The position numbers and the translations under genes are program-made. A stretch of 64,000 nt of DNA from Spirochaetes bacterium GWB1_60_80. GTDB taxonomy: Bacteria > Spirochaetota > Spirochaetia > Treponematales > UBA12059. Shown here piece by piece: positions 1,186 to 34,592 of the stretch (position 1 is its first letter; every line of letters begins with the position of its first letter). The notes below the pieces were generated by a model. It saw nothing but the letters and a program-made list of their open reading frames with translations. It was not told the DNA's origin and made no database searches. Location of the stretch: positions 62,001 to 126,000 of the forward strand of contig MIAR01000004.1 of the NCBI GenBank assembly GCA_001829185.1, given 5' to 3'.

Positions 1186-2286
<1,101 letters not shown>

Positions 2287-2367: not shown

Positions 2368-2492
2368 TGTAAATGCCGGCAGACTTGATGTAAAATAACA
2401 CACAGCCCAAGACCGGGAAAATTAGCCGCTCTGTTGGTGGGTAACTTAAATACCGGTAAACCTTACTTGACAGCCAACCGATATAGTGGGTG

Positions 2493-2580
2493 TCGGGTTC
2501 GATGCAGTTCCCCTCCCAGTTTGCTGCATCAAATCCGATTGCCTGTCAGGGCGGCCGGTTGCAAAACCGGCCTTTTTATT
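2493..2580 (+). ncRNA. Candidate small RNA with C-rich apical loop
   Basis: The 313-nt gap between gap and the NHL-repeat gene has no open frame of interest but holds a compact structured unit. A 15-bp stem (TCGGGTTCGATGCAG at 2493-2507 with CTGCATCAAATCCGA at 2524-2538) has 13 Watson-Crick pairs, one G-U and one mismatch. It presents a 16-nt loop that contains CCCCTCCC. A linker follows, then a perfect 8-bp terminator hairpin and T run. A -10-like TATAGT at 2482-2487 would start transcription at the base of the stem, but no good -35 is seen at 17 nt. The C-rich loop could pair with Shine-Dalgarno sequences, as in known C-rich-loop sRNAs. It resembles neither SRP RNA, tmRNA nor a tRNA. Confidence 0.5.
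2553..2578 (+). terminator. Plus-strand intrinsic terminator of the candidate sRNA
   Basis: GGCCGGTT and AACCGGCC form a perfect 8-bp stem around GCAA, followed by TTTTTATT on the plus strand. Read on the minus strand it has no T run, so it does not serve the flanking minus-strand genes. It implies a plus-strand transcript arising in the 2263-2550 region. Confidence 0.75.
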
Positions 2581-4645
2581 GGAGAGGCGTAAAATAACCC
2601 GTTTCAACCTTACCGGATTTGGCCCGAAAATAAACCTCGACGCGCAAAGGCAAAAAACTGCGGCCGAATCCGGGGTCCGCCATTGATGAAAAGGCCAATC
2701 GATACACACCGCTGGGGCGACCCGTAATGCGGGCAGCCAAACCAACCAGCGATTCCGGATCATTGTCCCGCATGATGCTGCCGCCGGTTTTCTCGACCAA
2801 AAACTGCAGAGCATCGGTGATCGGCTTCATCCCAATATGCAAAACATGTAAAGAAATACGGTTGGCGACCAGCAGAGAGGCCAAGTCAATCAAAGTGAGG
2901 TCAGTGAGTAGATCCTCGTTAATTGAGCCCGATGAGATATAGATAATGGATCGATGGTTGGCGCTGCCGGTGAGCTCATTGGCAGCCAAACGCAATCCAG
3001 AGTCAAAACGCCACGTGGTATCGGGTTGCATAGCCAGAATGGCGGCTGTCATAGCCTGCAAGGTACCGGCCGTGGCCGGCTGCGGAGTGGCCTTGGCGAT
3101 GACCAGGCGATTGGTAGTCGTGGCACCACCCAAACTAGCCTGCAGATTTACCAACTGATTCCGGATCAATACCCGATTCGCTTGCATTTCGCCAGAACCT
3201 TCTAGCAAAAAGACATTGTCAATGGCAGTGGTTTCGTCTAGCGAACCAGACAGCCGGAACCCGCTGATGGAACGGATCGACTCCCTGACAAACCTGATTC
3301 CGGAAGAGTCAGGGCGATTGGTCTCGGTAGTACGGACAATTTCGGATAAATAAAAATTTAATTCGGACAAGCCGATAACTGGACGGCCATACGTATCAAG
3401 AACCTGAACATCGATTTGCAAATCCGGGAAGTTATTGGCATACACATTCTGCACGTCCAGATATAGCCCAGCGTAGATGGTAACCGGGTCGGCCAGTAGC
3501 ATGATCTGGGATGAATTATAGTCTACTACTACCAGATCTCCATTGGCGTCGATATTAGCACAGATTAAGCGAGGATTGCTTTCCGCAGTTCGATAGAGCT
3601 CACGCAAGGAACCACTAGCCGGGTCAAACAGGAGTATTCGACTGGTGTCTGCAATCAGCAATTGGCCGGCAACCACATTCAAGCCTTCGGGTCGTACCAA
3701 TTGACCGGGAAGGACCTGGTCAAGCAAATTTCCGTACAGGTCAAAAACCAGTATGGAATGCAATCCGGCGTCAGCCACGTAGAGTTGGTCGCGCAGAATG
3801 GCTACCCCAGTAGGCAAGCGCAATCCCTGAAAATCGCTGGACTGCCCATTGAAGGCCTGGATAAAATTGCCTTGCGCATCCAGCTTCACCACCCGGGCGC
3901 GCCCGACATCGCTGACATAAATAAAATCCGCGTTATCGGTAGTCAAATATTGAGGGCCGATGATCCGTTCAGTTGGTCGCGCGATCGGCGCATAATTGGC
4001 AATTTGACCGCTTTCGGATAGGAACGTTATCCGGTTGGGTGTGAATTCCGAAATAACCATCCGACCGTCAGCCATAAAGGACAAACCAAAGGGTCGGTCG
4101 AATCCGGATACCCCTCCATTGAATTTCTCAACAATCAGGCCATTTGCATTGATACGCAGGATCTCGTTACTGCCATTGGCAACAAGCAGCATCGATCCAT
4201 TCGGCAACGTACTGATCCAGGATGGGCGTAAGAAAAGCGGCGCTTGCCGAGAATCATTAGCGATGGCACGGCTCTCTACATAGCGCCCAGCCACCGGCCG
4301 CTGGTTGGCCCGAGTGATGGCGGAGTATAATTCCAGGCGCGCTTCAAGGTAGCTGCTTGGCTGGTCACCAGCCAAGGCATCACTCCATAATTCCATGGTC
4401 GTCGTAGACAAGCCAGATTTATTGTAGGCCTGCCCAAGCCAGTACAGCGTCAGGGGATCCCCCGGGATCGTCGCCAATACCGATTCCAAGAGCATGATGG
4501 CCTCGCCATACCTACCACGGTGGTAAGCCTCGACGGCGATACGGAAATTAGCCGTAGCCGCAGGATCAGTAACTCGATAGGCGAACTGTCCAAAGACTGA
4601 GGCGCAAGAAATGATTAAGGATAGTAAAATGACCGACCGTTTCAT
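2576..4645 (-). CDS. Secreted TPR / NHL-propeller / VWA-like protein
   Basis: A predicted exported protein of 689 residues with a signal peptide (residues 1-19, cut near VFG-Q). Residues ~30-100 look like two TPR units. Residues ~135-390 contain NHL-type propeller blades with repeating patterns such as PFGLSFMADGRMVISE, FIYVSDVGRARVVKLDAQG and QLYVADAGLHSILVFD. Residues ~400-660 resemble a von Willebrand A fold (IIYISSG, LHVLHIG), but the metal-site motif DxSxS reads EGSG at 482-485, so metal binding is doubtful. The gene overlaps the upstream TPR gene by 4 nt, so the two are translationally coupled. Function is unknown. NHL plus TPR secreted proteins are common in spirochaetes, where a surface or periplasmic binding role is usually assumed. 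Confidence 0.75.
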   Translation of the reverse strand: MKRSVILLSLIISCASVFGQFAYRVTDPAATANFRIAVEAYHRGRYGEAIMLLESVLATIPGDPLTLYWLGQAYNKSGLSTTTMELWSDALAGDQPSSYLEARLELYSAITRANQRPVAGRYVESRAIANDSRQAPLFLRPSWISTLPNGSMLLVANGSNEILRINANGLIVEKFNGGVSGFDRPFGLSFMADGRMVISEFTPNRITFLSESGQIANYAPIARPTERIIGPQYLTTDNADFIYVSDVGRARVVKLDAQGNFIQAFNGQSSDFQGLRLPTGVAILRDQLYVADAGLHSILVFDLYGNLLDQVLPGQLVRPEGLNVVAGQLLIADTSRILLFDPASGSLRELYRTAESNPRLICANIDANGDLVVVDYNSSQIMLLADPVTIYAGLYLDVQNVYANNFPDLQIDVQVLDTYGRPVIGLSELNFYLSEIVRTTETNRPDSSGIRFVRESIRSISGFRLSGSLDETTAIDNVFLLEGSGEMQANRVLIRNQLVNLQASLGGATTTNRLVIAKATPQPATAGTLQAMTAAILAMQPDTTWRFDSGLRLAANELTGSANHRSIIYISSGSINEDLLTDLTLIDLASLLVANRISLHVLHIGMKPITDALQFLVEKTGGSIMRDNDPESLVGLAARITGRPSGVYRLAFSSMADPGFGRSFLPLRVEVYFRAKSGKVETGYFTPLQ

Positions 4646-16001: not shown

Positions 16002-16075
16002 TGAGCGATGCGGGAATCGAACCCACCACCTACAGCTCCGGAGGCTGTCGCTCTATCCATATGAGCTAATCGCTC
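16002..16075 (-). tRNA. tRNA-Arg (anticodon CCG)
   Basis: A 74-nt cloverleaf on the minus strand. The acceptor stem is GAGCGAT with ATCGCTC and discriminator A. The D-arm region reads TTAGCTCA...GGATAGAGC. The anticodon stem ACAGC/GCTGT closes the loop CTCCGGA with anticodon CCG, and the T-arm carries GGTTCGATTCC. CCA is not encoded. A very good promoter lies directly upstream. Confidence 0.95.
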
Positions 16076-33433: not shown

Positions 33434-33462
33434 TTGACCTTGGCTGGCTATCAGTCTATTAT
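33434..33462 (+). promoter_or_regulatory. Promoter of the thiamine transport operon
   Basis: TTGACC (33434-33439), 17 nt, TATTAT (33457-33462). The start of transcription would be near 33469, just before the riboswitch. Confidence 0.8.
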
Positions 33463-33465
33463 GCG

Positions 33466-33556
33466 CCTGCCGGGGTGGTGTCCATACTTCGTTGAAGTGG
33501 ATATCTGAGAACAAACCCGTACAACCTGATCCGGATAATACCGGCGGAGGGAGACG
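33466..33556 (+). promoter_or_regulatory. TPP riboswitch (THI element)
   Basis: Conserved THI-box segments appear in order: CCGGGGTGGTGTCC (5' part of P1/P2), GATATCTGAGAACAAACCC (the CTGAGA pyrimidine-sensing core), ACAACCTGATCCGGATAATA, and CCGGCGGAGGGAGAC. The last block contains GGAGGGA, which is both the 3' side of the closing helix and the Shine-Dalgarno of thiB. Ligand binding would therefore hide the ribosome-binding site and stop translation when thiamine pyrophosphate is plentiful. No separate terminator hairpin is seen before thiB. Confidence 0.92.
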
Positions 33557-33557
33557 A

Positions 33558-34592
33558 ATGAACACTCGTCGCATTTTTTCCCAAACCATGTCGATTCCTG
33601 CTCTGATCATCGCCGGCTGGCTGGCCGCCAGCCTGGTGGGCTGCGCCAAAGCCAGTGATGACCAGCCACTGCGCATCTACACCTACGATTCCTTCGTCAG
33701 CGAATGGGGACCGGGCGCGGCCATCGCCGCCGCCTTCGAGGCCGAAACGGGCCTTAAGGTCGAGATGGTCGATACCGGCGACGCCGGCCAGACCCTGGCC
33801 CGCCTGATGAGCGAGAGCGCCAATCCGCAAGCCGATATCGTCATCGGCCTCGACAATCACCTCTTGCCAAAGGCCTTGGCGGCGGATGTGCTCCTGCCCT
33901 ATAAGCCGAAAAACGCCGACCTGGTGGCCGAACGCTTGCGGCTCGACGCCGACTGGCACCTCACCCCCTTCGATTATGGCACCTTCGCCATCATCTGGGA
34001 TTCCGAGGCCTTGGCCGTCCCACCCCGCTCCCTGGAAGACCTGACACGGCCCGAATATGCCAAGCAGCTGATCTTGATGGATCCGCGCAGCAGCACCCCC
34101 GGCCTGGGCTTCCTGGCCTGGATCCATCAGATTTACGGCGATGGCCTGGCCGATTACTGGCAGCGCCTATCCCCGTCGGTCCTGGTCATGGCGCCGGGCT
34201 GGAGTGCCGGCTACAGCCTGTTTGAGAACGGCGAGGCGCCACTGGTTCTGTCGTACACCACCAGCGCGGCCTATCATGCCGAATACGGGACGGCCGGCCG
34301 CTATCAAGCGCTGGAATTCGCCGAAGGCCATCCGCTGCAGATTGAAGGCGTCGGTATCGTCCGTGGCACCAAGCGCTTGTCCGCGGCTCGCCGTTTCCTG
34401 GATTTCGTGCTGACCAGCGGCTTCCAGGAACATATTCCGCTTAACAACTGGATGTATCCGGTCAATCAGGAAATTCCGCTACCGGCCAGTTTCAGCCAGG
34501 CGCCAGAACCGCAGCGCAGTTTCATGGTAGCGGCCGAGGCCCTAGAGGGCCTTGACCGGATCGCCCTGGACGCCCTGCAAGCGGGGCAATGA
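33558..34592 (+). CDS. thiB: Thiamine ABC transporter, substrate-binding lipoprotein
   Basis: A 344-residue periplasmic binding protein. The signal peptide ends at LVGC (lipidated Cys near residue 29), so it is anchored to the membrane. IYTYDSFVSEWGPGAAI and QADIVIGLDNHLLPKAL match ThiB, as does NNWMYPVNQEIPLP near the end. The TPP riboswitch upstream confirms the substrate class. Overlaps thiP by 4 nt (ATGA). Confidence 0.94.
   Translation: MNTRRIFSQTMSIPALIIAGWLAASLVGCAKASDDQPLRIYTYDSFVSEWGPGAAIAAAFEAETGLKVEMVDTGDAGQTLARLMSESANPQADIVIGLDNHLLPKALAADVLLPYKPKNADLVAERLRLDADWHLTPFDYGTFAIIWDSEALAVPPRSLEDLTRPEYAKQLILMDPRSSTPGLGFLAWIHQIYGDGLADYWQRLSPSVLVMAPGWSAGYSLFENGEAPLVLSYTTSAAYHAEYGTAGRYQALEFAEGHPLQIEGVGIVRGTKRLSAARRFLDFVLTSGFQEHIPLNNWMYPVNQEIPLPASFSQAPEPQRSFMVAAEALEGLDRIALDALQAGQ

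Follow-up and report, generated by a model that had tools for sequence, protein, structure and literature searches.

A candidate small RNA gene was found on the plus strand between gap and a gene for an NHL-repeat protein in the window, that is, the whole stretch of 64,000 nucleotides that was analysed. Its stem covaries in relatives, the loop is C-rich and almost invariant, and the predicted ribosome-binding sites (RBSs) of ftsZ and fliF are complementary to this loop. We consider it likely that this is a FliA-dependent sRNA that would block translation of ftsZ and fliF. The gene, its structure and conservation, the promoter motif, the co-occurrence with FliA and the complementarity and rank of the targets were established computationally; transcription, dependence on FliA, repression and physiology are inferred. 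Few sRNAs are, to our knowledge, kept across a large part of a phylum, and riboregulation in spirochaetes is poorly understood beyond Borrelia and Leptospira. No report of this RNA was found in the literature, most subscription journals and bioRxiv not being covered. The features of the locus are as follows.

1186..2262, minus strand: gap (type I GAPDH), divergent neighbour; no match between its RBS and the loop (-8.8 kcal/mol)
2457..2460, plus strand: sigma-28-type -35 box TAAA, at the modal position among relatives
2477..2484, plus strand: sigma-28-type -10 box ACCGATAT (consensus GCCGATAA); CCGATA is conserved in relatives
2490..2577, plus strand: predicted sRNA of about 88 nt, starting near 2490 and ending in the T tract, both ends inferred and not mapped
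2492..2508, plus strand: 5' arm of the main stem, from the fold, with compensatory changes at every modelled pair
2508..2518, plus strand: loop core UUCCCCUCCCA, near-invariant in the alignment; proposed pairing site for the ftsZ and fliF RBSs, from target scans
2523..2539, plus strand: 3' arm of the main stem, from the fold and covariation
2541..2552, plus strand: small 4-bp hairpin GCCUGUCAGGGC, from the fold
2553..2577, plus strand: intrinsic terminator GGCCGGTT-GCAA-AACCGGCC-TTTTT, from the fold; all seven modelled pairs covary
2576..4645, minus strand: convergent gene of an NHL-repeat/vWA-like protein; the NHL repeats are assigned by Pfam, the vWA part is inferred from the sequence

The first-pass annotation had described a self-contained plus-strand unit here. 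The unit is present, and the finding reaches further than first stated. The fold of 2470-2600 (plus strand) is four standard deviations better than that of dinucleotide shuffles, none of 200 shuffles being as good. The main stem consists of 8+8 pairs with one mismatch between them, and the 14-nt loop at 2509-2522 carries CCCCTCCC at 2510-2517; the stem-loop had been recognized earlier, and only its dimensions (15 bp and 16 nt) are replaced by the 16 bp and 14 nt obtained on folding. The terminator, also noticed at that stage, has an 8-bp stem (2553-2572) followed by five T. The small hairpin recurs with other sequences in most relatives, as judged by eye from the alignment and without separate statistics. 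A minus-strand RNA was rejected, as its fold is ordinary (z -1.65) and it has no T tract. A small protein was rejected as well, since the in-frame ATG of the window copy is missing from other copies, which agrees with the initial view that the locus has no protein-coding explanation. Loop GGA motifs, as in CsrB-type, CsrA-sequestering sRNAs, are missing from the transcribed strand of the window's copy; the loop is C-rich. In Rfam 15 no family exceeded the gathering score at this locus, all matches there being at chance level. Elsewhere in the window there are an Rfam-assigned tRNA gene (16002-16075, minus strand) and a TPP riboswitch (RF00059, 56.2 bits; 33461-33569, plus strand), the latter just upstream of an open reading frame starting at 33558.

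Conservation of the stem and loop, whose absence in relatives had been named beforehand as grounds for refutation, is strong in BLASTN, pattern and covariance searches alike. BLASTN with 181 nt of the locus produced strong matches in most genomes of the same family and several of the same order. Searching a collection of named genomes with a pattern derived from the first alignments yielded 119 loci, almost all of them in Treponema, Spirochaetaceae or Spirochaetales. Among 44 diverse aligned copies, compensatory changes occur at 17 of 20 pairs. The covariance model, which scores 66 bits over 2491-2577 (plus strand) of the window, detected the RNA in 78 of 247 genomes of the phylum, almost always as one copy (it is single-copy in the genome of the window). 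The RNA extends over the whole order, most of the families in the class are represented, and its occurrence in the phylum at large is sporadic. The positive genomes include a single-contig one of 1,139,633 bases resembling Treponema pallidum and 2.8-Mb ones resembling T. denticola, both identities being inferred from size and sequence. In 93 relatives double compensatory changes affect all 20 modelled pairs and the loop hardly varies; 94.2% of the alignment cells are paired, compared to 73.1% in shuffles (0 of 500 reaching this value). This alignment had been fitted to the structure, and sliding the partners by one to three columns leaves 24-41% paired. In genomes beyond the class the stem drifts, but the loop TTCCCCTCCCA, a CGAT-type -10 box and a terminator persist in several families; the reversed pattern, used as a control, gives about a dozen matches in the 247 genomes. 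Six loci (L188, L066, L095, L128, L143, L152) were dismissed as false matches. Two copies carry additional structures. At L149 another perfect inverted repeat, GGGGAGGGGAACCTTTGG...CAAAGGTTCCCCTCCCC, again holding TTCCCCTCCC, lies just 3' of the terminator and is possibly a duplicated or competing element; in the distant copy at L202 (3324-3420) the loop region contains, after UUCCCCUCCCA, an inserted second hairpin (GGGAGCACGAAAGTGCTCCT).

The -10 box of the initial call, TATAGT, lacks a sigma-70 -35 partner and overlaps the sigma-28-type -10 box ACCGATAT, with TAAA lying 16 nt before it. A sigma-70 promoter for the RNA was not found on the plus strand, and the predicted promoter is of the sigma-28 and not the sigma-70 type. 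CCGATA was part of the pattern used to collect loci, and it was also recovered independently in the loci derived from BLAST and the covariance model. Upstream columns of the alignment contain T[T/A]AA[A/G] at -22..-18 from CGATA; among 108 distinct sites, 85 have TTAA, TAAA or TAAG between -25 and -17, compared to 15.6 in shuffles (maximum 25). The RACE-mapped flaB2 promoter of T. denticola, assigned to sigma-28, has the -10 box CCGATAA and the -35 box TTAA (PMC9481697). The putative promoter of the RNA is better read as the same motif, which fits sigma-28; dependence on FliA remains an inference.

Most FliA-bearing spirochaetes keep the RNA. Within the class, 67 genomes have both, two have FliA only, none has the RNA only, and 40 have neither, FliA being counted as present when its profile score exceeded the curated cut-off. 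In G245 and G275 FliA is present and the RNA was not detected, which counts against the reading. The genomes are related and the counts do not represent independent events. The families without FliA are f7, with small genomes in many contigs (Borrelia-like), and f13, possibly a non-flagellate group, both names being inferred; as these are at most two losses, the co-occurrence is consistent with the reading but not strong on its own. Borrelia is known to lack sigma-28 (PMC11607428).

Candidate targets were predicted from the duplex energy of UUCCCCUCCCA with the region -35..+12 of predicted open reading frames, using simple gene calls. In the T. pallidum-like genome (1085 frames) ftsZ ranks first (UGGGAGGGGAAUG-AUG, 11 bp), followed by a thyX-like gene and then fliF. 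The ftsZ gene also ranks first among 384 frames of the window's own genome and among 362 of G161; these samples, about a tenth of each genome, were not random, the ftsZ contig being included on purpose. In each of the three genomes scanned fliF is within the top three, with the sites CTGGGAGGGGGAACGAACATG (-21.7 kcal/mol) in the genome of the window and CTGGGAGGGGATATG (-21.3 kcal/mol) in G161; the former was scored apart from the 384-frame ranking because an antisense frame had masked fliF there. Identity of FtsZ, FliF and FliO was confirmed by family searches. The loop is, as predicted from these sites, an almost perfect match to the RBSs of ftsZ and fliF. The order of the loop letters matters: at eight of nine sites at most 3 of 1267 permuted loop cores do as well, and the best-scoring permutations contain CCCCUCCC.

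The ftsZ sites were then compared between genomes with and without the RNA: after the T. pallidum-like genome, 28 further RNA-positive genomes were examined, followed by a test set of five RNA-positive genomes from outside the class and 25 RNA-negative ones, with the RNA status assigned beforehand. The median site energy is -20.7 in the 34 RNA-positive genomes and -9.3 in the 25 RNA-negative ones, and the difference holds for family medians (18 versus 11 families, p = 7e-6). RNA-positive genomes have GGGAGGGG-like sites; those in RNA-negative genomes are mostly of the plain GGAGG type or weaker. All five predictions outside the class have GGGAGGGG or a run of seven G. Exact TGGGAGGGGA followed within zero to eight nucleotides by ATG occurs, sRNA loci excluded, at about 46 sites in 25 genomes, of which 11, as placed by coordinates, are at ftsZ or fliF: at the fliF start in G014, G161, G172, G219 and G255, and at ftsZ in six genomes. 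Some observations count against the reading: the ftsZ site of g22/g33-type treponemes is only UGGGAGGAA (7 bp), and the ftsZ sites of some RNA-negative genomes are themselves fairly rich in G (G077, -16.6). When five T. denticola-like genomes were searched for targets with the full 10-mer, only nine non-self sites came up, none of them at ftsZ, which there has the shorter site CGGGAGGG. Counting GGGRGGGG over 42 genomes revealed no general excess compared with the reversed pattern, and thus the signal resides in specific genes and is not genome-wide.

Several other genes have loop-complementary sites. In the genome of the window, the predicted RBS of pfk (L423:9471-10643) is GUGGGAGGGGACUAUG (-21.3 kcal/mol), as good as that of fliF, and a site with the same letters exists in G014; phosphofructokinase is a possible extra target that would provide a link to glycolysis. 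In the same genome UGGGGGAGGGGCA precedes the TTG start of fliO (L416:3817-4452; -18.8 kcal/mol). In the T. pallidum-like genome G032, long G runs ahead of tpr-like frames likewise come out as loop-complementary; in appearance they are closer to homopolymeric promoter tracts than to RBSs.

The genes around the RNA bear on whether it is a unit of its own. A class A PBP gene (PBP1A family) lies directly downstream on the same strand in 77 of 168 loci, at a median distance of 74 nt; gap is upstream and divergent in 22 of 168. The arrangement with the PBP gene is what a cis-acting leader or attenuator of that gene would produce. However, in 52 of the 77 loci a separate promoter (TTGAC-N15-18-TANNNT; 2.9 expected from shuffles) lies between the terminator of the RNA and the start of the PBP gene, and thus the RNA is an independent unit, not a PBP leader. 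Moreover, no PBP gene follows the RNA in the window lineage, at L009 or at the ABC-F loci, where the RNA is retained, and we regard a leader function as very improbable. Only in the genus of the window is the PBP gene replaced behind the RNA by the NHL-repeat gene (2576-4645 in the window, and L009), which, as read from gene order, is a lineage-specific rearrangement leaving the RNA in place. Terminator hairpins are common, and one could suppose that nothing here is real except a terminator and chance complementarity; this is virtually excluded, being already refuted by stem covariation, along with the invariant loop and the promoter over more than 100 genomes. Those marks of a trans-acting sRNA that can be read from sequence are present: a promoter motif and a terminator away from the targets (ftsZ and fliF are on another contig than the RNA gene), and a conserved, unpaired, complementary seed.

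It remains to consider what the loop binds. Near-invariance across a phylum exceeds the usual need of one target, and C-rich loops are typical ligands of KH domains, so a FliA-dependent sRNA might instead present its loop to a protein (a KH-domain or other C-rich-RNA binder), the G-rich sites of ftsZ and fliF being just strong Shine-Dalgarno sequences. This seems unlikely to us, as the ftsZ sites follow the loop exactly (UGGGAGGGGAA) past the reach of anti-Shine-Dalgarno pairing, rank first in three genomes and track the presence of the RNA across families. A little less doubtful, though still improbable, is a broad dampening of many mRNAs with GGGAGG sites, ftsZ and fliF merely being the strongest; other strong sites do exist at fliO and pfk of the window's genome, the thyX-like gene of G032 and an ABC permease gene of G161. 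Each genome has few exact sites, however, and in the data examined no genes other than ftsZ and fliF recur between deeply diverged genomes. The first-pass annotation had proposed a trans-acting sRNA with an anti-Shine-Dalgarno loop, which the conserved stem-loop and the target scans leave as the best reading, no transcript or repression having been demonstrated; target prediction from the loop, which it had suggested as a check, puts ftsZ in first place and fliF in the top three. Binding to G-rich RBSs is retained as a prediction, whereas generic Shine-Dalgarno sequences as targets give way to, above all, ftsZ and fliF, singled out by an unbiased scan.

The preferred reading, a FliA-dependent sRNA acting on ftsZ and fliF, suggests that the RNA may link the building of flagella to cell division. 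In flagellar systems generally, FliA becomes active once hook construction is complete and FlgM has left. RNA polymerase with FliA (sigma-28) would then transcribe the independent sRNA gene, and the RNA, ending at its intrinsic terminator, would keep UUCCCCUCCCA open in the loop of the 5'-terminal stem. By pairing with UGGGAGGGGAA-type RBSs of ftsZ and fliF the loop would cover the Shine-Dalgarno sequence and block 30S binding, as DinR does on Klebsiella ftsZ; the direction of this effect and its physiology are inferred. Division and new basal-body starts would be held back while filaments are completed. A wider version, a spirochaete-wide checkpoint coupling completion of periplasmic flagella to division and new basal-body assembly, probably without Hfq, is one that we favour only slightly, no Hfq search standing behind it; a published survey reports Hfq in Leptospiraceae and not in Borrelia. 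If true, one RNA ties flagellar assembly to the level of FtsZ, which bears on the question of how bipolar periplasmic flagella and division are kept in step in spirochaetes; the circuit would be testable in treponemes, and its loss is predicted in lineages without FliA.

Parts of this scheme have precedents. RsaE/RoxS, LhrC, the alphaproteobacterial cuckoo RNAs and RepG of Helicobacter likewise use an unpaired C-rich loop to pair with G-rich Shine-Dalgarno sequences or G tracts, but they belong to different phyla, with different architectures and promoters, and several have more than one such loop. The sigma-28-made MotR, FliX, UhpU and FlgO of E. coli (PMC10578931) and the FliA-dependent CJnc170/FlmR of Campylobacter jejuni (PMC11187230) regulate flagellar synthesis; their sequences are unrelated, the E. 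coli ones are UTR-derived, and no ftsZ target was seen for them. In C. jejuni, the connection between flagella and FtsZ runs through other mechanisms (PMC3228812). DicF of Escherichia coli (PMC5069750) also acts on division through ftsZ, but it is prophage-encoded, narrowly distributed and without a flagellar link, and no likeness in sequence or structure was seen. DinR of Klebsiella pneumoniae (PMC10907235) likewise occupies the ftsZ RBS and represses translation. However, DinR is SOS/LexA-controlled, processed from the dinI mRNA, Hfq-dependent and restricted to one lineage, whereas the spirochaete RNA has an independent gene, a sigma-28-type promoter and a phylum-wide distribution.
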